DNA from: Bacillus sp. CH30_1T
Lineage (GTDB): Bacteria; Bacillota; Bacilli; Bacillales; Bacillaceae_B
Assembly (NCBI RefSeq): GCF_008364765.1
Contig: NZ_VTUY01000002.1
Span: 188,501 to 252,500, forward strand
Length of the DNA stretch: 64,000 nt
Direction: 5' to 3'
The notes beneath the pieces are model-generated. The model ran no database searches and was not told where the DNA came from. It saw only the letters and a list, made by a program, of their open reading frames with translations. The position numbers were made by a program, and so were the translations under genes. Positions 1,782 through 59,751 of the stretch are shown one piece after another. Each line of letters starts with the position of its first letter. Position 1 is the first letter of the stretch.

Positions 1782-1790
1782 TACTTCTGA

Positions 1791-1823
1791 AGGGACGGAC
1801 CTCGAATTTCGAGGTCCGTCTCT
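1791..1823. repeat. Compact palindrome made of two fused 14-mer repeats
   Basis: Two inverted copies of the dispersed GAGGGACGGACCTC-type repeat abut here, giving a 16-bp stem around a one-base loop (position 1807) with a single G-U pair. It sits directly after the yvyE stop and before the LCP gene. There is only a weak T-rich tail, so it may act as a terminator or RNA stabiliser, but its sequence places it in the repeat family seen throughout 27-59 kb. Confidence 0.85.
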
Positions 1824-1940
1824 CTTGTAATATAAATTTCATTTTACGATTTTATAGGTAAAGTAGTACAATAGAAATTGATATAATACGTCGAATATTG
1901 TTTATTGGTGTGACTACTCGAAAAAGGAGTTTTTCTATAT

Positions 1941-29316: not shown

Positions 29317-33192
<3,876 letters not shown>

Positions 33193-33200
<8 letters not shown>

Positions 33201-34725
33201 TTGTTGTTTCCTCCTTTGTTTTGGTTGGTTTAATGAGTGTGCTTAACGAGATCTGTTGCAGCCACTGGTTGGCTTTTTCTATATCTTTCGAGAAGATTCG
33301 GTCCTTTGTGATGGAAGGGATGACCTTTCTCGCTGCTTCGTAAAATTGTCGTGTCCGGCTTGCCATGAGGTCCGTCCCTCGATGTTCCGCTGCCTGCAGA
33401 TTGCAGATAAGTTCGACGGCGAGTACTCTTCTTGAGTTCTGCAGGATTTGGTAGGCATGTCGTGACCCTATGGTTCCCATGCTGACATGATCTTCCTGGT
33501 TGGCGGATGACGGGATGGAATCAACGCTCGCTGGATGGGCGAGGGTTTTGTTTTCAGATACGAGTGATGCCGCACAGTATTGCATGATCATGGCACCGGA
33601 TTGGAGTCCTGGTTGCGGACTTAGGAACGGCGGCAGGTCATTGAGCTGCGGGTTCACCAGTCGCTCGATTCGTCTTTCTGAAATATTGGCTAACTCTGCT
33701 ATGGCAATCTTCATGAAATCCATGGCAAAGGCGATTGGCTGTCCGTGGAAGTTTCCTCCTGAAATGACCTTTTCTCCGTCATCAAAAATGAGTGGATTAT
33801 CAGTTGCGGCGTTCATTTCGATTTCCAGCTTTTCTTTTACATAGTCTAGTGCCTGCCAGGATGCTCCGTGAACCTGCGGGATGCATCTTAAGGAGTACGC
33901 GTCCTGTACTCTTAACTCCCCTTGCTTTGTTGTGAGCTTACTGTCCTGTAAGTAGTTCCTTATGCGTTCTGCCGTTGCGACCTGTTGAGGATAGCCTCTT
34001 ACTAAATGAATATCTTCGTCGAAAGCATCCATGATTCCTCTAAGCCCTTCCATGGTCAGACTGGCAATCATCTCGCTTTGGAAGGCAAGTTCCTCCGCTT
34101 CCAGGTATCCGATGACTCCCATTGCCGTCATTGCCTGTGTTCCGTTGATGAGTGCCAAACCTTCTTTCGCCTGAAGCTGGATAGGGAAGATATTTTCTTT
34201 TGAAAGGACAGGAAGGGTTTGATGGACCTCTCCTTGATAGTGGACTTCTCCTTCACCCATCAATGCCAGGGCCAGATGGGAAAGTGGCGCTAAGTCTCCG
34301 CTTGCTCCCAGTGATCCTTGTTGAGGAATGACCGGATGGATCCCTTTATTGAGGAATTCAGTGAGACGTTCCACAATGACCGGTCTAACACCTGAATACC
34401 CTTTTAATAGAGCATTGGCTCTCAATAGAAGCATTGCTCGAGAAACCGTCTCAGGGAATGGATCTCCCACCCCACATGCATGAGAATGGATCAGATTGAG
34501 CTGAAGCTCCTCCACATCTTCCGCATCAATCAACACATCACTAAACTTCCCAAAGCCCGTGTTGATCCCATACACCACACGCTTCTCCTTCACAATCCGC
34601 TCAACCGCCTCACGACTCTTCCGTACCCGCTCCATACTAACCGGTGAAAGTTCCACTTGCTCCTTCCCATAAATAACCCTCTTTGCTTGCTCCAAACTCA
34701 AACTACAACCCGTCAACTCCACCAT
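33193..34725 (-). CDS. hutH: Histidine ammonia-lyase HutH
   Basis: HutH removes ammonia from histidine to give urocanate. The 510-residue enzyme carries the MIO-forming Ala-Ser-Gly in [14 protein letters not shown], plus [35 protein letters not shown] and [10 protein letters not shown] use the ATG at 34725 (AGAGGTG upstream); a GTG at 34734 is an unneeded extension. It is first in the hutHUIG operon after the HutP-controlled leader. A complete 14-mer repeat at 33367-33380 encodes RGTDL. Confidence 0.96.
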
Positions 34726-34749
34726 TACAATCACCTCTTCATATTTTTA

Positions 34750-34761
34750 GGGACGGACCTC
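34750..34761 (+). repeat. Dispersed repeat copy in the hut leader
   Basis: GGGACGGACCTC, just upstream of the hutH ribosome-binding site (25 bases from the start). It would be part of the hutH leader RNA. Confidence 0.85.
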
Positions 34762-34850
34762 CAAAAGTTGCATCTCCACAACCTCGGTCTGGCCAAACCC
34801 CTCTAAATCGCTATTATCGTTGTTCGTTCTTTAATGCTTTAAACCACTCT

Positions 34851-34862
34851 GGGACGGACCTC
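34851..34862 (+). repeat. Second dispersed repeat copy in the hut leader
   Basis: GGGACGGACCTC in the same orientation as the copy at 34750, 101 bp away. No inverted partner is seen between or around them. Confidence 0.85.
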
Positions 34863-34913
34863 CTAATCTGCAATGTCTACTCCCTAAAATCTTGACCCAA
34901 AAATTCCACACAA

Positions 34914-34954
34914 AAAGAGACCCGACCAAAGACAGACTTCTGCCATTGGTCGAG
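34914..34954 (-). terminator. HutP-regulated terminator in the hutP-hutH leader
   Basis: On the minus strand CGACCAA and TTTGGTCG close a stem with an inner TGGCAGA/TCTGTC part, followed by TCTCTTTTT. It lies between hutP and hutH, where B. subtilis has the attenuator relieved by HutP, histidine and magnesium. Confidence 0.8.
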
Positions 34955-34965
34955 CCTCCTTTCAA

Positions 34966-34984
34966 CTAATATCTCTAGGCTCTA
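34966..34984 (-). promoter_or_regulatory. NAG-triplet HutP binding site
   Basis: On the minus strand three TAG triplets occur at 34984, 34977 and 34968, spaced by 4 and 6 bases, immediately after the hutP stop and before the terminator stem. HutP binds UAG/NAG triplets with this sort of spacing. Confidence 0.65.
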
Positions 34985-34988
34985 AAAT

Positions 34989-35435
34989 TTAAATATGATT
35001 AATCCCAAGTCCAATTGTCTCGTGCTCCAGCCCCTTAATGGGCGCACCAATCGTTCCGTATAGAGCAACTGCGATCCATTCGCCTTCTTCTTCACTTGCA
35101 TATGGCGTGCCTCTTACAACCGAAAAGCGCAATCCCACAGTACGCAAGATCTCACCTAATTGCGTATGGCCCCTGGTCACACCCGTTAAAGCCTCCATGA
35201 TGGCGTGATACAAGGCGTGCATTTCCCGGTACAAATCTTCACGAACAAGATCACTTCGTTTTGCTGCTGTTTCAATCGCAGCCACGATTTTTTGACTGTC
35301 CATGGATCCGATTTTCCCGGTGCAGTAACTCCAATTCAATTCATTAAAATGACGATTCCATTCTTCTTCCTCTTTGTCTACGAGGAGAAGAAGCATGGCA
35401 TTCTTTCCGATACGAGTATGATCTGTCTTATCCAA
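34989..35435 (-). CDS. hutP: Hut operon antiterminator HutP
   Basis: HutP is an RNA-binding hexamer that, with L-histidine and magnesium, opens the terminator in front of hutH. The 148-residue protein aligns end to end with the family: [105 protein letters not shown] (in pieces). Histidines of HETxGxGINH and the GxIGAPIKG loop are present. The start is TTG at 35435 with AAGGTG about 10 nt upstream. It is the promoter-proximal gene of hutPHUIG. Confidence 0.95.
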
Positions 35436-35627: not shown

Positions 35628-35641
35628 GAGGTCCGTCCCTC
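35628..35641 (-). repeat. Dispersed repeat copy upstream of hutP
   Basis: A complete copy, read as GAGGTCCGTCCCTC on the plus strand, sits in the 280-bp gap between hutP and the next gene. No inverted partner is evident. The rest of the gap holds the hutP promoter but no feature I can assign. Confidence 0.85.
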
Positions 35642-35716: not shown

Positions 35717-36199
35717 TTACTCTTCTTGTTTTTTGCCTTTTCCTTTGAACACTTGAGGGTTGTTCATGAGATAGGTGACTGTTCCGCCACCAGACTTTAG
35801 GCTTAGGTAGGATAGAATATCCTGTTTGTCTTCATTAGAAAGACGGTCAACAATAGGGTATAAAGATCTTATATTCAATTGCTCCACTCCATCCCGCTTT
35901 TCCAGTACAACCTTACAATCCTTTGGTTCCTTATCACCTATACGGACAAACTTAAATGGGATGGAATGATTACGATCGATTGGAACGGCAAACAAAGAGG
36001 TAAACCCAACTGTTTCAAGTATTTTATCGGAGTACATGATGCTTTCTAGTGCATGGGAAAATCCCGGTGGCTGATTCACAACGACTAACTTATTGTAATA
36101 ATGCTGACCTTGAAATACGACTAAATGTTTTTTCGATTTCTTGATACTCCTTTTTGAAACGTGAAAATCCTCAAACACCAATATAAAGTCTTTATTCAT
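35717..36199 (-). CDS. Hypothetical 160-residue protein
   Basis: I do not recognise the family. It has a strong site (GGAGGAG, 4-10 nt before the ATG). The protein is soluble, basic at the N-terminus (SKRSIKKSKKH) and ends KGKGKKQEE. It contains FILVFEDFHVS, YNKLVVVNQPPGFSHALE and VTYLMNNPQVF. The gene follows the RAYT gene in the same orientation by 90 bp, so it may be co-transcribed; whether it belongs to the element is unknown. Confidence 0.65.
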   Translation of the reverse strand: MNKDFILVFEDFHVSKRSIKKSKKHLVVFQGQHYYNKLVVVNQPPGFSHALESIMYSDKILETVGFTSLFAVPIDRNHSIPFKFVRIGDKEPKDCKVVLEKRDGVEQLNIRSLYPIVDRLSNEDKQDILSYLSLKSGGGTVTYLMNNPQVFKGKGKKQEE

Positions 36200-36289: not shown

Positions 36290-36880
36290 TTATTTTTTTA
36301 CAATTTTAATTGTATTTATATCGAATTCCTTGTTTGGTCCCTTCTCTTCTTCTTTGTCTACATATTCTTTATAAAGCTTCACTTCTGAATCTGGGAAATA
36401 GGTCAGGGTCCTCTCCTTTGAAAGAAGCGGATTGTCGATGGTATGAACATATGAGGGGTAACTGCTCCAAGGATAATACTCGGGGACGACAGTGAGTTTG
36501 GCTTTGACAGGATTTTGATGAATATATCTACTGACCTTAATAAAATAGTCAGGGGTATCAATCTTAGTAGATCCATATCTTCCTTGAAAAACATGTCCGA
36601 CATAATCATATTTCTTATTGAAATAAACAGCATAACGGGTATGAAGAATTCTGAAGATCTTCTCAAGTGGCACGTCGTGGGTTTCGATCAGAAGATGTAT
36701 GTGGTTGGACATTAAACAGTAAGCGTGAATAGTAAAAATATACTTGTCTTTCGTATCCTGCAGGTAGGATAAATACTTTTTTCGGTCTTCAATGTCATGA
36801 AACAAGTCTTGCTTTCTGTTGCCTCTCGCCATCACATGATAAGTGGCTCCCGGACACCAATCCCGGGGCGTTCGTACCAT
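36290..36880 (-). CDS. REP-associated tyrosine transposase (RAYT, Y1_Tnp / IS200-like family)
   Basis: The protein is 196 residues with the HUH nuclease fold: GATYHVMARGNRKQDLFHD near the start, the metal-binding YCLMSNHIHLLIE (H60-I-H62), HTRYAVYFNKKYDYVGHVFQGRYGS, and the helix DYFIKVSRYIHQNPVKAKL carrying the likely catalytic tyrosine (Y112 or Y119). Such enzymes cut and join single-stranded DNA at REP hairpins. A REPIN-like inverted pair of the dispersed 14-mer lies 81 bp upstream at 36961-37044, the setting expected for RAYTs. Unlike IS200 it lacks typical element ends of its own. Confidence 0.88.
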   Translation of the reverse strand: MVRTPRDWCPGATYHVMARGNRKQDLFHDIEDRKKYLSYLQDTKDKYIFTIHAYCLMSNHIHLLIETHDVPLEKIFRILHTRYAVYFNKKYDYVGHVFQGRYGSTKIDTPDYFIKVSRYIHQNPVKAKLTVVPEYYPWSSYPSYVHTIDNPLLSKERTLTYFPDSEVKLYKEYVDKEEEKGPNKEFDINTIKIVKK

Positions 36881-36960
36881 AACATCACTCCTCCTCTTGA
36901 TTTGAACTAAATTTCATACAATTACCTTTTCGACATAACTCCTCAAAATCCTCTTTTTTT

Positions 36961-37044
36961 GAGGGACGGACCTCTGGAAATTTACAAAAGACGTTAAATC
37001 AGGCTGCTTGTCTTTAATTTCACCGTTAGAGGTCCGTCCCCCTC
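36961..37044. repeat. REPIN-like inverted pair next to the RAYT gene
   Basis: GAGGGACGGACCTC (36961-36974) faces GAGGTCCGTCCCC (37029-37041) with about 55 bp between. The spacer folds back partly (AAATTTAC...AAGAC with GTCTTTAATTT). Total 84 bp. It lies in the RAYT promoter region. Confidence 0.88.
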
Positions 37045-37921: not shown

Positions 37922-38014
37922 GAGGGACGGACCTCGAGAACACTCAATAGAATAATAAATGTGAAGAACTAGGCATTATATCTTTATTATTCTATCAATA
38001 GAGGTCCGTCCCTC
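37922..38014. repeat. REPIN-like element with fully self-complementary arms
   Basis: GAGGGACGGACCTC (37922-37935) faces GAGGTCCGTCCCTC (38001-38014). The spacer adds a perfect 13-bp inverted repeat (ATAGAATAATAAA with TTTATTATTCTAT), so the 93-bp unit can fold into one long hairpin. Confidence 0.92.
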
Positions 38015-40847: not shown

Positions 40848-42467
40848 ATGAATACACTAAAACGCCTCATCATCCTAACCATCCTCCTCTCCCTCCTGGC
40901 CTTCTCCTTCCCATCCACCTGCCTATTCGCAGCACCAAACCCACCCAAGAAAAACGTCATCCTCATGATCATGGACGGTACCAACTCCGACATCGTCACT
41001 TTGTCACGTTGGTATCGAGGGACGGACCTACAACTGGATAAAATTCTGGTCGGAGGTGCACGGACATATTCAGCTCAGTCAGCGATTACCGATTCCGCTG
41101 CTGCCGGATCGGCCATGGCCACCGGTATGAAGACGAAAGCTGATTACATAGGAATGAACCCGGATGGACGTCCCGTTTTGACCGTCCTTGAAGGTGCCAA
41201 GTTGGCCGGCTACAAGACCGGTATCGTAGCAACATCACCTGTCCAGCATGCCACTCCGGCTGCATTCACTTCCCATGTCTTGAACCGTGATGAATTTGGA
41301 GATATCGGCGAACAACAGGTGTATCAGGGTCTCGACGTCATCTTAGGTGGAGGGGCCGCCTGGTTGAAACCGAAATCCAAAGACCACGTGAAAAACGATG
41401 ATGGCATGCTTAAAACAAAGGAAGTCAGTCGTGAGGATGGAGAAAATCTCGTGAAGGTCATCGGTTCTGAGAGCTATGATTTGGTTTTGAAGAGGGACGG
41501 ACTTCTAAAAAGAAAAGGCTCTTCTAAATTATGGGGTGCGTTTGCTGAAGAGGACATTGCCTATGAAATGGACAGAAAGACGTTAAAGCCTGATGAACCT
41601 TCACTTGCGGAGATGACTGGAGCGGCAATCGACAGACTTTCACAAAGCGAGAAGGGATTCTTCTTGATGGTCGAGGGCAGTAAAGTGGATTGGGCTGCTC
41701 ATAAAAACGATCCTGTTGGGATGATCAGTGAAGTGCTTAGCTTTGACGATGCTGTCGGGGAAGCGTTGAAATTCGCTCGCGAGGACGGAAATACGATGGT
41801 GGTAGCCGTGACCGATCACGGAAACAGTGGGCTGACAGTTGGGAATCAGGGTACAAACGGGGATTATAAAAATCAGCCTGTTGAGAAATTTGTTGAGCCT
41901 TTAAAAAAAGCTAAACTAACTGTAAAAGGTGCCGTTTCTCAACTTGAGGAGGATCGTTCAAATTTAAAAGAGGTTCTTTCAAACTATGGGTTAGGGAATT
42001 TGAGTAAAAAAGAATTCTGTGCGATGGAGGATGCTTCTAAAAAAGTAGAGGATTTAGAGGATGAAATGGTAAAGCTAATGGCAAAGCGGGCCAATCTTGG
42101 TTTTACGACACATGGACACACCGGTGAGGACGTCTTTTTATATGCGTATGGACCTGGAAAACCTGTGGGTCTTATTGAAAATACCGATATACCCAGAGTG
42201 ATTTCTAAGTATCTCGGATTATCATTAACTTCCGGCGAATTTGCCTCCTGGTATGTGGATGGAGCGGAATTTTATCGTGAAAAAGGTTATAAGGTGAAGA
42301 TCGAGGGACGGACCTCGAAAAATCCTGTGATGGTGGTGGAGCGTGGGGACGAAGAGCTGCGTTTTCCTGAAAATAAGAATTTTTATTGGAAAAATGGTGA
42401 AAAAGTGAGGCTGAAGAGTGTGAATGTGTATGATGGGGAGACTTTTTATTTGCATGTGGAGGAATAA
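40848..42467 (+). CDS. Secreted alkaline phosphatase
   Basis: This 539-residue enzyme has a signal peptide (to about 28, LFAAP) and the alkaline phosphatase fold: metal-binding Asp43 in VILMIMDGTNSD, nucleophile Ser83 in ITDSAAAGSAMATG, GGGAAWL, MVEGSKVDWAAHKND (metal ligands), VAVTDHGNSG and FTTHGHTGEDVFLYAYGP. It hydrolyses phosphate monoesters outside the cell. It is related to the PhoA/PhoB or PhoD-like families but has an extra C-terminal copper-amine-oxidase-like or Ig-like tail (about 460-539). Three copies of the dispersed repeat (41017, 41492, 42303) lie in the gene and are translated in three different frames (RGTDL, RDGL, EGRTS). Confidence 0.9.
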   Translation: MNTLKRLIILTILLSLLAFSFPSTCLFAAPNPPKKNVILMIMDGTNSDIVTLSRWYRGTDLQLDKILVGGARTYSAQSAITDSAAAGSAMATGMKTKADYIGMNPDGRPVLTVLEGAKLAGYKTGIVATSPVQHATPAAFTSHVLNRDEFGDIGEQQVYQGLDVILGGGAAWLKPKSKDHVKNDDGMLKTKEVSREDGENLVKVIGSESYDLVLKRDGLLKRKGSSKLWGAFAEEDIAYEMDRKTLKPDEPSLAEMTGAAIDRLSQSEKGFFLMVEGSKVDWAAHKNDPVGMISEVLSFDDAVGEALKFAREDGNTMVVAVTDHGNSGLTVGNQGTNGDYKNQPVEKFVEPLKKAKLTVKGAVSQLEEDRSNLKEVLSNYGLGNLSKKEFCAMEDASKKVEDLEDEMVKLMAKRANLGFTTHGHTGEDVFLYAYGPGKPVGLIENTDIPRVISKYLGLSLTSGEFASWYVDGAEFYREKGYKVKIEGRTSKNPVMVVERGDEELRFPENKNFYWKNGEKVRLKSVNVYDGETFYLHVEE

Positions 42468-44602: not shown

Positions 44603-47420
44603 ACTGTCTTCCGTAAAAATCAACGTCAACACAACTGAATATGAAGACCGTTTCTTCATCACTGCGGAAAACGACGAAGGAAAGCTTTTGCCTCCAAAAG
44701 AATGGAAGGGGCAGCTGTTTCTTTGGCATGAAGAAAGTTACTACGGAACTCTCCTTGAGGATTCCGCAATTGGAATTGCGGTGACTCAGTGGCAGCTTCT
44801 CACCTTGCTTGCCGGTGAGCATTTCAGCAGCATGATCCAATGGGACTGGGACGAAACCGGGCAGGCGTGTATAGCAATTGCCCCTGTGATCTACGAATCT
44901 GTGGAAGCCGGTCGCTGGCTGCCCCGCTTCGAGGAATGGCAGGAAAAAGGGTTGCAGTTTCATATCCCCGATGAAGTCTGGTCGAATTTTAATGAGGAGT
45001 TCTGGGAGGAAAAGCTTCCTGATGGAGGTCCGTCCCTCAAATCATTAACGGAGAATTGGTTTCAGGGTGCGTTGAATGAGGCGATGGCTTTGGGTGGATC
45101 TAGTGCGATGAAGAGGATTCAGAAACTGAAGGAAAGTACTCTGACATCTGAAGAGCTAGATGCGTATTTTGATGAGAAGCGTTGGAGTGAATGGATTGCC
45201 GGCGAGGATGAGGAACTTCCGTTTTCGATTGGCCTGAGGATCTCTGAGCCTCTTGATGAGGATGAGTCCTGGGAGCTTGAGACAATCCTCAGAGACCGCA
45301 AGAAAACGAATCGCGTCATTTCACTGGCTGAAGACACAGTCCCTCCTTCCTGGAAAAAGCATCTGCCTGATGTATCCGAAGAACAGGAACGCTGGATGAA
45401 GATGATGCCGATCCTCCGTGATGTGGATGGTTCCCTTCGCACGGCTCTTGGTGAGCACGATGCCTGGGATTTCCTATCCGTATTAAGTGAAAAGCTTATC
45501 GACTTGGACATTGAAATCCTCCTGCCATCCTGGTGGGAAGCGATGAAGGATGCTCAGGTGTTGGTCAAAGCCAAACTGAAAAACACGGACACAAGCTACC
45601 GTCCTTCATTCGTAGGATTGAATGCTATGCTTGATTTCGACTGGCGATTATCCATGAACGGAGTCAATCTGTCAGAGGATGACTTTAATCAACTCGTCGA
45701 TAATCAGCGACGCTTAGTGAAGATTCGCGGTCAGTGGATGAAGCTTGATCCTGCCATGATTCGCAGGATACAGCAAATGATGACGAAAGCGAAGCAGGAA
45801 GGGATTTCGATCCAGGATATGCTGGAGCAGGAGCTAGTTCCCCGCGATTCGGATGAATCGGATCTGGAGCCCGATGAAGACGAGCATGATCCCTATAAAT
45901 ATGCCAAGATCCAGCTGGAACTCAATCGATCTATGAAAAAGATGATTCACCAGCTGACAAATGTGTCATCAATTCCTTTAACGGAAACACCTGACGCGTT
46001 TATAGGCGAGCTTCGTCCATATCAGAAGCTGGGTATGAGCTGGATGCTCTTTTTGCGTAAATTCGGCTTTGGCGCTTGTCTAGCTGATGATATGGGACTC
46101 GGAAAAACGGTACAGCTGATTACGTACCTGCAGCATGTAAAAGAAACCGAGAAACCGGAAACACCTTCCTTAATCGTTGCCCCTACCTCCGTTCTTGGAA
46201 ACTGGCAGCGTGAGTTGGAGAAGTTTGCTCCTGATTTGAAGGTCCACCTTCATTATGGACCGACCCGGTCGAAAGGTGATCAATTTGCCGCGGAGATCAA
46301 AGGCGTAGATGTGGTTCTTACCTCTTATGGCTTATCCCACATCGATTTTGAAGAGTTATCGGAAGTCGTCTGGACATCGATTTCCCTTGATGAAGCACAA
46401 AACATCAAGAATGCCAATACGAAACAATCCCGGGCAATCCGTAAACTCAGTGGAAAGCATCATATTGCGTTAACCGGGACCCCGATGGAGAATCGGTTGT
46501 CCGAACTGTGGTCGATCTTTGATTTCCTTAACCACGGGTACCTCGGTGGTTTCACTCAGTATCAGAAAAACTATATCGCTCCGATTGAAAAGGATGAATC
46601 CGAAGAAAAAGTCAAAGAGCTTCAGGCAAAAATCAAGCCGTTCCTATTGCGTCGTACAAAGAAAGATCCCGAAGTGGAATTGAATTTGCCTGAAAAACTG
46701 GAGCAGAAAGAATATTGTCACCTGACCGCTGAGCAGGCGGCACTCTATGAGCAGCTGGTGAAAGACACTCTCGCTAAAATTGAAACACTTAGCGGATTTG
46801 AGCGCAAAGGATTAATTCTGCAAATGCTCAACCAGCTGAAGCAGCTATGTAACCACCCTGCTCTCTATTTAAAAGAACCGGATCCAAAGTCGATCCTCTC
46901 CCGCTCTGAAAAAATGCAGAAGCTGAAAGACATCGTGGAAACCGCTCTGGAGTCTGGAGAAGCTTGCCTGATCTTCACTCAATATATTTCAATGGGCGAA
47001 ATGATCCAGGAAGTGATGAAAGAAGAATTCAACGTCGATGTCCCATTCCTGAACGGCAGCATGGCAAAAGGAAAACGTGATGAGCTCGTGGAGAAATTCC
47101 AGAACGGCGATTTCCCCGTATTTCTATTGTCACTGAAAGCAGGCGGAACCGGATTGAACCTGACCGCAGCCAACCACGTCGTCCACTACGATCGCTGGTG
47201 GAACCCGGCAGTAGAAAACCAGGCAACCGACCGTGCTTATCGGATCGGACAACAGCGATTCGTTCACGTTCATAAACTGGTCTCTTCAGGTACACTGGAG
47301 GAAAAAATTGATGCCATGCTGACGAAAAAGCAGGCATTGAACGATGAGATTATCAGAAGTGATCAATGGGTTACGGAATTGTCTGATCATGATTTGGAGT
47401 CGTTGTTGGTGCTGGAGTAG
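44595..47420 (+). CDS. SNF2/SWI2-family DEAD/DEAH-like helicase
   Basis: The 941-residue ATPase has a Snf2_N-associated N-terminal region (about 1-470) and the helicase core: motif I ADDMGLGKTVQ near 497-507, TSVLGNWQRELEKFAP, motif II DEAQNIKN, TGTPMENRLSELW, then the C-terminal RecA fold with LIFTQYISMGEMIQ, FLLSLKAGGTGLNLTAANHVVHYDRWWNPAVENQATDRAYRIGQ (in parts), the arginine finger set. It is a DNA translocase, probably in chromatin-like remodelling or repair. One repeat copy at 45025-45038 is translated as GGPSL. Confidence 0.92.
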   Translation: MLKLSSVKINVNTTEYEDRFFITAENDEGKLLPPKEWKGQLFLWHEESYYGTLLEDSAIGIAVTQWQLLTLLAGEHFSSMIQWDWDETGQACIAIAPVIYESVEAGRWLPRFEEWQEKGLQFHIPDEVWSNFNEEFWEEKLPDGGPSLKSLTENWFQGALNEAMALGGSSAMKRIQKLKESTLTSEELDAYFDEKRWSEWIAGEDEELPFSIGLRISEPLDEDESWELETILRDRKKTNRVISLAEDTVPPSWKKHLPDVSEEQERWMKMMPILRDVDGSLRTALGEHDAWDFLSVLSEKLIDLDIEILLPSWWEAMKDAQVLVKAKLKNTDTSYRPSFVGLNAMLDFDWRLSMNGVNLSEDDFNQLVDNQRRLVKIRGQWMKLDPAMIRRIQQMMTKAKQEGISIQDMLEQELVPRDSDESDLEPDEDEHDPYKYAKIQLELNRSMKKMIHQLTNVSSIPLTETPDAFIGELRPYQKLGMSWMLFLRKFGFGACLADDMGLGKTVQLITYLQHVKETEKPETPSLIVAPTSVLGNWQRELEKFAPDLKVHLHYGPTRSKGDQFAAEIKGVDVVLTSYGLSHIDFEELSEVVWTSISLDEAQNIKNANTKQSRAIRKLSGKHHIALTGTPMENRLSELWSIFDFLNHGYLGGFTQYQKNYIAPIEKDESEEKVKELQAKIKPFLLRRTKKDPEVELNLPEKLEQKEYCHLTAEQAALYEQLVKDTLAKIETLSGFERKGLILQMLNQLKQLCNHPALYLKEPDPKSILSRSEKMQKLKDIVETALESGEACLIFTQYISMGEMIQEVMKEEFNVDVPFLNGSMAKGKRDELVEKFQNGDFPVFLLSLKAGGTGLNLTAANHVVHYDRWWNPAVENQATDRAYRIGQQRFVHVHKLVSSGTLEEKIDAMLTKKQALNDEIIRSDQWVTELSDHDLESLLVLE

Positions 47421-52710: not shown

Positions 52711-52808
52711 GAGGGACGGACCTCGAAAACAGACTTTCTTTAAAATCTCAATCCTGATATATCAAGGTTCTTTGTTCAATATGAGCGTAAAATCGAGGTC
52801 CGTCCCTC
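52711..52808. repeat. REPIN-like element A
   Basis: GAGGGACGGACCTC (52711-52724) faces GAGGTCCGTCCCTC (52795-52808), 98 bp overall. The spacer contains AATCCTGATATATCA, the reverse complement of the spacer core in the neighbouring element at 52830. Confidence 0.92.
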
Positions 52809-52829: not shown

Positions 52830-52926
52830 GAGGGACGGACCTCGAATACAAAGCTCCATCCGCAACGAAACCCCAATATATCAGGATTCATTGCCCCAAA
52901 AGCTAAATATCCGAGGTCCGTCCCTC
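52830..52926. repeat. REPIN-like element B
   Basis: GAGGGACGGACCTC (52830-52843) faces GAGGTCCGTCCCTC (52913-52926), 97 bp. The spacer core AATATATCAGGATTCA matches element A when that element is inverted. Confidence 0.92.
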
Positions 52927-57855: not shown

Positions 57856-59751
57856 CTATGTTAAAGAGTAATGAGACAGCATCATTTGTTGAAATTCACG
57901 AATCGTTTTCACACTCTTGTATAGATTTTCTTTTTTGCGGGTGGAGAGTGAGGAGAAGTGTACCGTATCTCCCTTACCTTTCCGCTTTAACTCTATATAG
58001 AGCTTCATGAATTCCTCGAATGCTTCGGATAATTCTTCTGCATAATCCGACGAAATTGAACGTTTTTCTTTCAAAAAGTCCAGCTTCTCTCTTGTCGATC
58101 CTGAGGTATTCCCATGAGCAGCGTTCAAGATCTGCAAAGCATGATGAAAAGGAAACAGAATGTCTTTCTTAATGGACACTGTTTTTCGATCCATACCTAA
58201 TATCGAACGGATGGAGGAGTGAAGAACAGGAACCTGCTTGGATTTTTCGACTTGAGCAAGCCGTACCAATAATATTCTCGCACTGCGGAGCTGCTCTTTA
58301 ATCGCGTCTTCAAATGTTGAATGAAGTGCTACATCCCCAAATAAAAAACGGTAAGATAAGAAGTTTTGTACCTTCAATAAGGTTTCCTCTGACGAATGGA
58401 CAGACCATTCTCTCAGTCTTTCCTGCCAGGAAACCATACTCCCTGTCCATGCTCTCTGATTCGCCATCATTCCTCCGTCACAAAGACTTAGTCCTGCCTT
58501 TTCCAATGCAACTACAACTCTTTCAGCTAAAAGATGGAAATATTCCACCGAATCACTACTATGTGTTTCATAAACCAGGAAATGATCTTGATCGGTCAGC
58601 ATAAACTGTTCTTTCCTTCCTGCTGAACCCATGACATAAAAGGCATACGAACAAGGGCATTCCCGTCCTTCCTGATACAATTCTTCCTGAACCTGCCTTA
58701 AGATTCGCTGATAAATACGATCGAATAGTCCCGACATGAAATCGAGTATTTGAAACACAGGAGCTTGTGCCTTCCAAAGGCTCGTAAGCACCGACTCTGC
58801 CATAGGTTTAACCTTTTCCAGGGGAAAATCCTTGTTCTCCAGCTTTCTTGCACTCGTCAGCGTTCCTATATGGTTTGCTTTCATTACATCGTGGAGGGAG
58901 ATAATGCCGACGATAGGTCCGTCCCTCTCCTTGCCTCCGACAACGGGCAGGTGTTTGATGGAGTGGTCGATCATGGTGGCGAGGGCTTCGTACAGATAGG
59001 CGTCACGGTTGATGACGGTTGGGTTGGGGGTCATGGCCATGTTTACCGGTTTGGAGAGAGGGACGGACCTTGCAAGGCATCTGGAGACGAGGTCTCTTTC
59101 TGTCAGGATTCCTGCGATGCGATTGTTTTCCAAAATGATGACAGAGCTGACCCGGTTTTCTCCCATGGCTCTAGCTGCATCCTCCAGGGAATCATCACTC
59201 CTGACAGTTACAACTGAATTCGTCATTACATCACTCACACGCTTCAGAATCGTCGTGCGCTCTTCAAGCCCGTGTGTCACTCCCACTTGCTGCGACAAGG
59301 AATAATAAACATCCTGAAGTCGTTTCGATGTTTCCTCCAATAAAAAATTCTTCAAATAAGGTTCATTCCAATAGTTTTGCAAACTAGTATATGGAACAAG
59401 GCATAGCAGGCAGTCCTCCTTCGCCTTGACCTCAACGGAGGAATACACACTATCCATAACTGATGTATGCAGAACAGAGTATAGACTCGACAAGCCGATG
59501 ATCCCGTCCTTAGAAATCATTTCAAGAATCTCATCTTTTTCTTTTGAGACAACCACTTCTACCTCTCCATTAATCACAAGATAGAGTCCTGATCGGTGTT
59601 CAAAGCTTTTCAGAATAGTAGAATGCTTCCCCACCTCAAGCCGCATACACTCACTAAAAAGGGAAAGAGCCGTACTCCGCTCCATCCCTTTAAAGAAGGG
59701 ATGAAGGAGTACAGCTTCTTGAAATGATCCGTCAGGCTTTGAAGTCGACAT
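57856..59751 (-). CDS. cNMP-binding, CBS and DUF294 nucleotidyltransferase protein
   Basis: The 631-residue soluble protein has an N-terminal cyclic-nucleotide-type domain (about 20-145), two CBS domains (about 165-300: VVTVRSDDSLEDAARAMGENRVSSVII, ITLTERDLVSRC) and a DUF294 nucleotidyltransferase domain (about 325-470) with GSAGRKEQFMLTDQDHFLVYE, plus a DUF294_C tail. It may sense nucleotides and modify or control the symporter, whose gene it overlaps by 20 nt. Two dispersed repeats (58915-58927, 59058-59070) fall in the CBS coding part in opposite orientations. Confidence 0.87.
   Translation of the reverse strand: MSTSKPDGSFQEAVLLHPFFKGMERSTALSLFSECMRLEVGKHSTILKSFEHRSGLYLVINGEVEVVVSKEKDEILEMISKDGIIGLSSLYSVLHTSVMDSVYSSVEVKAKEDCLLCLVPYTSLQNYWNEPYLKNFLLEETSKRLQDVYYSLSQQVGVTHGLEERTTILKRVSDVMTNSVVTVRSDDSLEDAARAMGENRVSSVIILENNRIAGILTERDLVSRCLARSVPLSKPVNMAMTPNPTVINRDAYLYEALATMIDHSIKHLPVVGGKERDGPIVGIISLHDVMKANHIGTLTSARKLENKDFPLEKVKPMAESVLTSLWKAQAPVFQILDFMSGLFDRIYQRILRQVQEELYQEGRECPCSYAFYVMGSAGRKEQFMLTDQDHFLVYETHSSDSVEYFHLLAERVVVALEKAGLSLCDGGMMANQRAWTGSMVSWQERLREWSVHSSEETLLKVQNFLSYRFLFGDVALHSTFEDAIKEQLRSARILLVRLAQVEKSKQVPVLHSSIRSILGMDRKTVSIKKDILFPFHHALQILNAAHGNTSGSTREKLDFLKEKRSISSDYAEELSEAFEEFMKLYIELKRKGKGDTVHFSSLSTRKKENLYKSVKTIREFQQMMLSHYSLT

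Follow-up and report, generated by a model that had tools for sequence, protein, structure and literature searches.

A TIRYT-like REPIN-RAYT system was probably present in the window, the whole 64-kb stretch of DNA that was analysed. The HUH enzyme encoded by its RAYT gene and a short DNA word were read as cognate partners, with the word also actively kept inside genes in a manner resembling the dialects of DNA uptake sequences (DUS). The first-pass annotation had assigned the locus to the REPIN-RAYT systems. This assignment stood in so far as the repeat tracked the RAYT lineage and inverted pairs were common, and it fell short on the lack of a single pair length in the genome of the window (G000; other G numbers denote compared genomes) and on sites within genes. 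The REPIN label is incomplete because many copies were stable sites in genes, formed in place. The nearest named relatives of G000 were mostly Rossellomorea, with a few entered under Bacillus sp., and the genus of this genome is probably Rossellomorea.

The RAYT gene, its word and the inverted pairs

The RAYT gene (36290..36880, minus strand) adjoined the hut operon, with the hutP-H-U-I-G genes (29317..35435, minus strand; NCBIfam) as its syntenic neighbour. It encoded a Y1/HUH protein of 196 residues with the motif H60xH62 and the tyrosine Y119, and these three residues did not vary across 28 aligned sequences. A single Pfam domain, Y1_Tnp, was matched with an E value of 3.8e-15. The NCBIfam model of the REP-associated tyrosine transposase (NF047646) was matched with an E value of 3.9e-20 and 72.2 bits, a score below the model cut-off of 80. 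The Y1 HUH core and catalytic tyrosine of the RAYT / TnpAREP enzymes were both present in the protein. The predicted structure had a mean pLDDT of 87.9 and a pTM of 0.83, with low confidence from residue 180 onward (below 50 for residues 180–196), and a search of the PDB with the RAYT sequence matched nothing at an E value of 0.1. G000 contained this gene and one relative of 47% identity, a low copy number as in RAYT genes and not that of an expanded insertion sequence. The second RAYT was located amid TCAGCAGCTGA repeats (L032 1300-2230; G000:C26:100080-100595 and flanks), which are perhaps its own cognate repeat. An open reading frame of 160 residues adjoining the RAYT (window 35717-36199) had no Pfam or NCBIfam match, and its relatives persisted by hutP in genomes where no RAYT was found, with 64% identity in G001 and G020 and about 40% in G026, G027, and G034.

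The word GAGGGACGGACCTC, searched on both strands with up to two mismatches, gave 24 matches in the 64 kb, compared with 0.17 expected and a maximum of 1 in 100 shuffles; the earlier figure of about 26 copies was close. A genome-wide count had been proposed as a check, and it placed the word far above expectation, with 154 exact copies of the 12-mer core in G000 (77 on each strand) and 1 copy of the reversed control. The T-ending form contributed 133 more copies. The consensus from the sequence logo was (G)AGGGACGGACCT(C/T), outside which the sequence was nearly flat, and the GTAG/GTGG tag located 5' of the hairpin in REPINs was absent from the logo. Chance or codon usage as the source of the word was rejected because the reversed control occurred 0–3 times per genome and the word 0–2 times in the 14 genus members without a cognate RAYT. 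Viral contigs gave 39 single scattered matches, which were uninformative.

The four head-to-head pairs and the fused palindrome of the first-pass annotation were recovered by the motif scan. One pair of 82 bp (36961..37042) preceded the RAYT start by about 80 bp, in agreement with the earlier placement of the gene beside a pair. The second pair (37922..38014) was 93 bp long, and two further pairs of 98 bp (52711..52808) and 97 bp (52830..52926) had centres that were alike by eye. The fused palindrome of two motifs spanned 35 bp (1790..1824). Another copy was found about 650 bp past the RAYT 3' end (35628..35641, minus strand). The repeat was both next to the RAYT gene and dispersed, as in RAYT / TnpAREP systems. 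Both words of the pair at 36961..37042 were found with 0–2 mismatches across 13 genomes while its interior had diverged, and the motif was absent from the position of the 37922..38014 pair in Rossellomorea sp. AcN35-11.

A set of 149 hits was drawn from stretches of G000 that surround 100 of the 154 exact copies and total 261 kb with the window; this set favours the CTC form and is not a sample of the whole genome. Its neighbouring pairs were head-to-head (+/-) in 32 cases and tail-to-tail (-/+) in 11, and the inverted orientation of REPINs was common. The expected preference for one pair length was not borne out in G000, where lengths were scattered from 30 to 166 bp, and several of the longer pairs had a weak central palindrome in common by eye. 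In G023 and G018, 20 units picked for regular spacing were 44, 52, or 50 bp long, with interiors alike by eye and unrelated flanks. Such fixed-length units in unrelated flanks, found in two sister dialects (D2 and D3, defined below), would be the mark of amplified small elements, as expected from the REPIN model.

The exact 12-mers of G000 were clustered around the RAYT gene, with 8 within 5 kb and 12 within 10 kb where 0.31 and 0.63, respectively, were expected; these counts include the genic hut sites. In G003, the 100-kb bin with the RAYT held 16 of the 92 forward sites listed (of 151), and the next fullest bins held 8. Among the sites listed, the region G003:C1 1.9-2.95 Mb had at least 11 forward sites in about 1 Mb, compared with at least 81 in the first 1.9 Mb. 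A strand polarity in G003 was considered and set aside; only forward sites were found among those listed beyond 0.18 Mb, but the totals were 151 and 166, and no polarity is claimed because the sites listed are partial.

Word copies within genes

Ten of the 24 window copies, overlooked in the first-pass annotation, were located in open reading frames of at least 200 codons. Four were in hut genes on the minus strand: hutG (30025..30038, encoding RGTDL), hutI (31450..31463, GDGPL), hutU (33150..33163, GTDL), and hutH (33367..33380, RGTDL), where codon alignment showed the exact 11-base core in 15, 15, 16, and 15 of 16 cognate genomes, respectively. The alkaline phosphatase gene contained three plus-strand copies: 41017..41030 (core in 12 of 15), the variant GGGACGGACTTC at 41492..41505, and 42303..42316 (EGRTS; core in 13 of 14). 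An antisense copy in the SNF2-type helicase gene (45025..45038, minus strand) had its core in 13 of 13 genomes. The remaining two, each with one mismatch, were in the same 633-codon frame (58914..58927, minus strand; 59058..59071, plus strand). The identities of hutP, hutH, hutU, hutI, and hutG were assigned with NCBIfam, and those of the alkaline phosphatase and the SNF2-type helicase with Pfam.

Frames of at least 200 codons held 32 of the 149 G000 hits, with a higher share in the window (10/24) than elsewhere (22/125; Fisher p 0.014); genic here means a stop-to-stop frame of that length, a few of which may be non-genes (C1:669550 and 669656 are doubtful), and several genic copies belong to pairs rather than being single.

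The codon tests covered seven sites in six genes near the RAYT and two genes far from it. The seven exact-core sites near the RAYT were retained with a mean of 93% (12–16 of 13–16 cognate genomes), compared with 17.6% for 11578 background 11-mers of the compared genes, the sites being defined in G000. None of 100000 resamplings reached a retention as high. Codons within the motif were identical in all genomes in 14 of 17 cases, compared with 293 of 2502 other codons, although the 17 are not independent within a site. In genomes outside D1, the dialect of the G000 clade, the exact core was found at 1 of 61 compared positions (hutH of G001). In the hutU and hutH alignments, shown for 11 genomes, the hutU residues were GTDL in the D1 clade and GTEI, GLEL, or GLEI in the other relatives shown. 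Insertion of a motif-length segment into the genes was considered as an origin of the sites, and none was seen at the sites read in codon alignments; the word had arisen by substitution, at some sites with a change in the protein. The length differences beside sites were two codons at hutG and three-codon insertions at hutI in three loci.

Similar retention was found far from the RAYT. In yheB, which encodes a DUF445 protein that we take to be YheB, GGGACGGACCTY was present in 13 of the 15 other main-clade genomes (missing in G022 and G004), and in prmC, AGGTCCGTCCC was present in 14 of 15 (missing in G012). The word core was absent outside the D1 group from yheB in 13 genomes and from prmC in the 12 that were readable (G015 was unreadable there). 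The yheB core was one base short in G023 and G015, and G030 had the word in neither gene. The prmC residues were RRSVP in the clade and RMTVP in G001 and G020. The yheB relatives encoded the same GTDL. Some sites thus use pre-existing protein sequence, because the hutH core was found in the motif-poor G001 and the yheB relatives encode GTDL.

The word of G023 differs from that of G000, and both of its genic sites in the 19 kb read coincided with G000 site positions, namely those in the phosphatase (41492..41505) and the helicase (45025..45038), the latter with a one-codon gap. In stretches read from D3 and D4 genomes, 0 of 8, 0 of 10, 1 of 8, and 0 of 7 sites were in long frames, and the genic feature is perhaps special to D1 and D2 for this reason. 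Genic conservation was documented in D1 and, beyond it, at no more than two sites of D2.

RAYT lineage and word dialect across genomes

Four dialects were distinguished: D1, GGGACGGACCTC or its T-ending form (the G000 clade and G030); D2, GGGACGTACCTT; D3, GGGACGGTTCTC; and D4, GGGACWGTCCC. The RAYT adjoined the hut genes at those D1 loci that were read, as it did in G024, G023, G018, G002, G008, and G033. Among the 36 genomes of the genus (G000-G035), the 22 with a RAYT of 64–100% identity, a line drawn after inspection of the data, contained 72–191 copies of GGGACGGACCTC, and the other 14 contained 0–2. The check proposed earlier, whether genomes without this RAYT are without the repeat, thus supported a link of the repeat to this RAYT lineage. 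A further 114 genomes of the order had 0–2 copies each. The CTT form occurred 84–201 times in the same 22 genomes and 0–18 times in the others, the value of 18 being that of G023. In G005/BHET2 the RAYT was in two adjoining pieces and apparently frameshifted (L075 10001-10560, L134 7428-7987), and 148 copies were nonetheless present.

More distant RAYTs were surrounded by the other dialects. The D2 word occurred 217 times in G023 (RAYT 58%) and 0–2 times in the other 35 genomes. The D3 word occurred 116 and 118 times in G018 and G002, respectively (RAYT 57%), and 0–46 times elsewhere. The D4 word occurred 204 times in G008 (RAYT 51%), 139 times each in G009 and G033, 85 times in G028, and 78 times in G011, with 0–11 copies in the other 31 genomes; the best RAYT of G009 had no identity figure among the matches listed. 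Each of G030, G023, G018, G002, and G008 had its own word near its own RAYT.

The species and enzyme trees were discordant for G030. In the species tree (YheB and PrmC), G030 grouped with the D3/D4 genomes (0.993) and G023 was nearer to D1, whereas the RAYT tree placed G030 together with D1 and G024, and G023 separately (0.92), without fixing the position of G030 within D1. The word of G030 was that of D1. Therefore, the dialect tracked the enzyme rather than the species position in this case.

No RAYT was found on reading the hut stretches of G001, G020, G026, G027, G034, G028, and G011. The first five of these genomes had at most 10 copies of any counted word. G028 and G011 contained the D4 word even so, and further RAYT relatives in these two genomes were not connected with this word. 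G069, from another family of the same order, had 29 copies of the D4 word (reversed control 0) and no RAYT match at an E value of 0.001. The preferred reading of a cognate enzyme and word does not yet account for the D4 copies of G028, G011, and G069.

Clusters of GGGACGGTTCTC, mostly one-stranded, were observed in G032:C1 (757-880 kb and 4108-4178 kb) and in G004:C1 and C5; one surrounded a longer RAYT relative (257-codon frame) at G032:C1:4161272, and another was near G004:C5:2969. They are additional instances of a word concentrated close to an enzyme gene. Fifteen further RAYT-relative loci were inspected, most of which had their own flanking quasi-palindromes, some of these matches possibly being chance; L080 and L091 had none by this count. 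The relatives at L076, L081, L082, L084-L086, L088, and L090 were located amid differing short quasi-palindromes, in Neobacillus, Bacillus sp. EB01, Aquibacillus, Halobacillus, Rossellomorea (a paralog), and Clostridium algidicarnis.

Proposed maintenance of the word and comparison with known systems

The RAYT would recognize the 14-mer. In the proposed mechanism, the RAYT would bind the word in single-stranded DNA, and the DNA would be cut and rejoined beside it. Inverted pairs may then be amplified as small non-autonomous elements, as the fixed-length units with unrelated flanks in two sister dialects suggest. The word itself was kept where the RAYT persisted, a pattern that may arise because word-completing mutations in genes are retained, at a cost in synonymous freedom and sometimes in amino-acid changes. 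When the specificity of the RAYT shifts, the sites would shift along. The keeping force could be biased copying of word-bearing DNA, as in a DUS-like drive, or it could be selection because RAYT-bound sites serve the host, and the two seem about equally likely.

If every copy were a mobile or decayed REPIN, with single genic copies as insertions or relics, then the inverted pairs, the RAYT near the motif, and the fixed-length units of the sister dialects would all be explained. In alignments with relatives, however, the genic sites compared showed no insertion of motif length and were kept codon for codon, whereas relics should decay; this classical model is disfavoured for the genic sites and improbable as a full account. 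Words kept in genes are not predicted by the REPIN model, while DUS biology has dialects, intragenic words, and inverted pairs, and the word therefore appears to be maintained by a process that targets it directly. Such a process may be a drive, in which word-bearing DNA is preferentially integrated through the RAYT, or through a step coupled to it, and such alleles spread by recombination. Enrichment around the RAYT gene itself fits this tentative explanation, although we know of no link between HUH transposases and DNA uptake. For DUS, PMC3630211 describes dialects, intergenic inverted pairs, and intragenic sites alike; the roughly 290 copies (154 and 133) are few beside the hundreds to thousands reported for uptake sequences.

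The word could also be a chromosome-maintenance signal that is read by a domesticated RAYT and held by purifying selection. The strict retention of sites and the one syntenic RAYT locus in the D1 loci read, G023, G018, G002, G008, and G033 speak for such a host function, but the equal strands genome-wide (77 and 77) are unlike polarised signals, and this reading does not explain why copies gather around the RAYT gene; it too is put forward tentatively. An unlikely alternative is that the word is that of another DNA-binding protein and that its link to the RAYT reflects shared ancestry. Word and RAYT could both follow phylogeny, and the D4 word occurs without a linked RAYT in G028, G011, and G069, yet the dialect of G030 goes with its RAYT and not with its species position, the motif is beside and clustered around the RAYT, and in G001, G020, G026, G027, and G034, whose hut stretch lacks a RAYT, no counted word exceeds 10 copies.

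Within the preferred reading of a cognate enzyme and word, a more speculative extension is that a domesticated HUH transposase promotes every allele in which its word is completed, by way of recombination or of incoming DNA. Hundreds of unlinked sites, coding ones included, would then gain the same 13–14 bases, have them rewritten together with the enzyme, and be densest around its own gene, as a self-promoting genome watermark. In the open-licence PMC literature, no paper on this repeat or on RAYT words conserved inside genes was recognized, and no report of a transposase-coupled self-promoting genome watermark in a Gram-positive organism was found. On the question of why hosts retain RAYTs, a RAYT word conserved at codon positions across species makes a role of the enzyme in recombination, uptake, or genome maintenance testable, and several word variants within one genus, together with the discordant G030, are natural experiments that supply matched enzyme-word pairs for the study of specificity.

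The IS200/IS605 elements share the catalytic family (by Pfam) and differ from the present system, which has one copy at a syntenic locus and a 47% relative elsewhere. The likeness to DNA uptake sequences (DUS/USS) comprises a short word, species dialects, intragenic sites, and intergenic inverted pairs; here the partner is a relative of HUH transposases and not ComP, the copies are fewer, and the host is Gram-positive.

With the REPIN-RAYT / TnpAREP-REP systems (PMC3116915, PMC6006769, PMC8266576), the present system shares an HUH/Y1 enzyme, an enzyme-specific repeat near its gene, inverted pairs, and copies mainly outside long open reading frames. It differs in the missing GTAG tag, the word of 13–14 bp, the non-uniform pair length in G000, and the codon-level retention in genes. 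According to PMC8266576, the TnpAREP of E. coli recognizes single-stranded REP, which it cleaves at CT and joins in recombination reactions in vitro, and by analogy the D1 RAYT may act on its own word in the same way.

The TIRYT / TnpAY1 subclass 2.1 / RAYT group 1 enzymes share a Y1 enzyme flanked by inverted repeats (PMC3733652, PMC6006769). A C-terminal HTH-like extension is a further mark of this subclass. Set in GGGGACAG, the D4 word agrees with the GGGGWSAS printed for these enzymes, the D1 word does not, and flanking repeats of the GGGGWSAS type fit by eye in G008 and some other relatives. TIR families are described as moderately abundant, with single, dimeric, and grouped forms, in PMC3733652. 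Subclass 2.1 genes have no REP-like sequences nearby according to PMC6006769, whereas here word populations track the enzyme. Among the described branches, TIRYT / subclass 2.1 may be closer to this system than the gammaproteobacterial REPIN RAYTs are.
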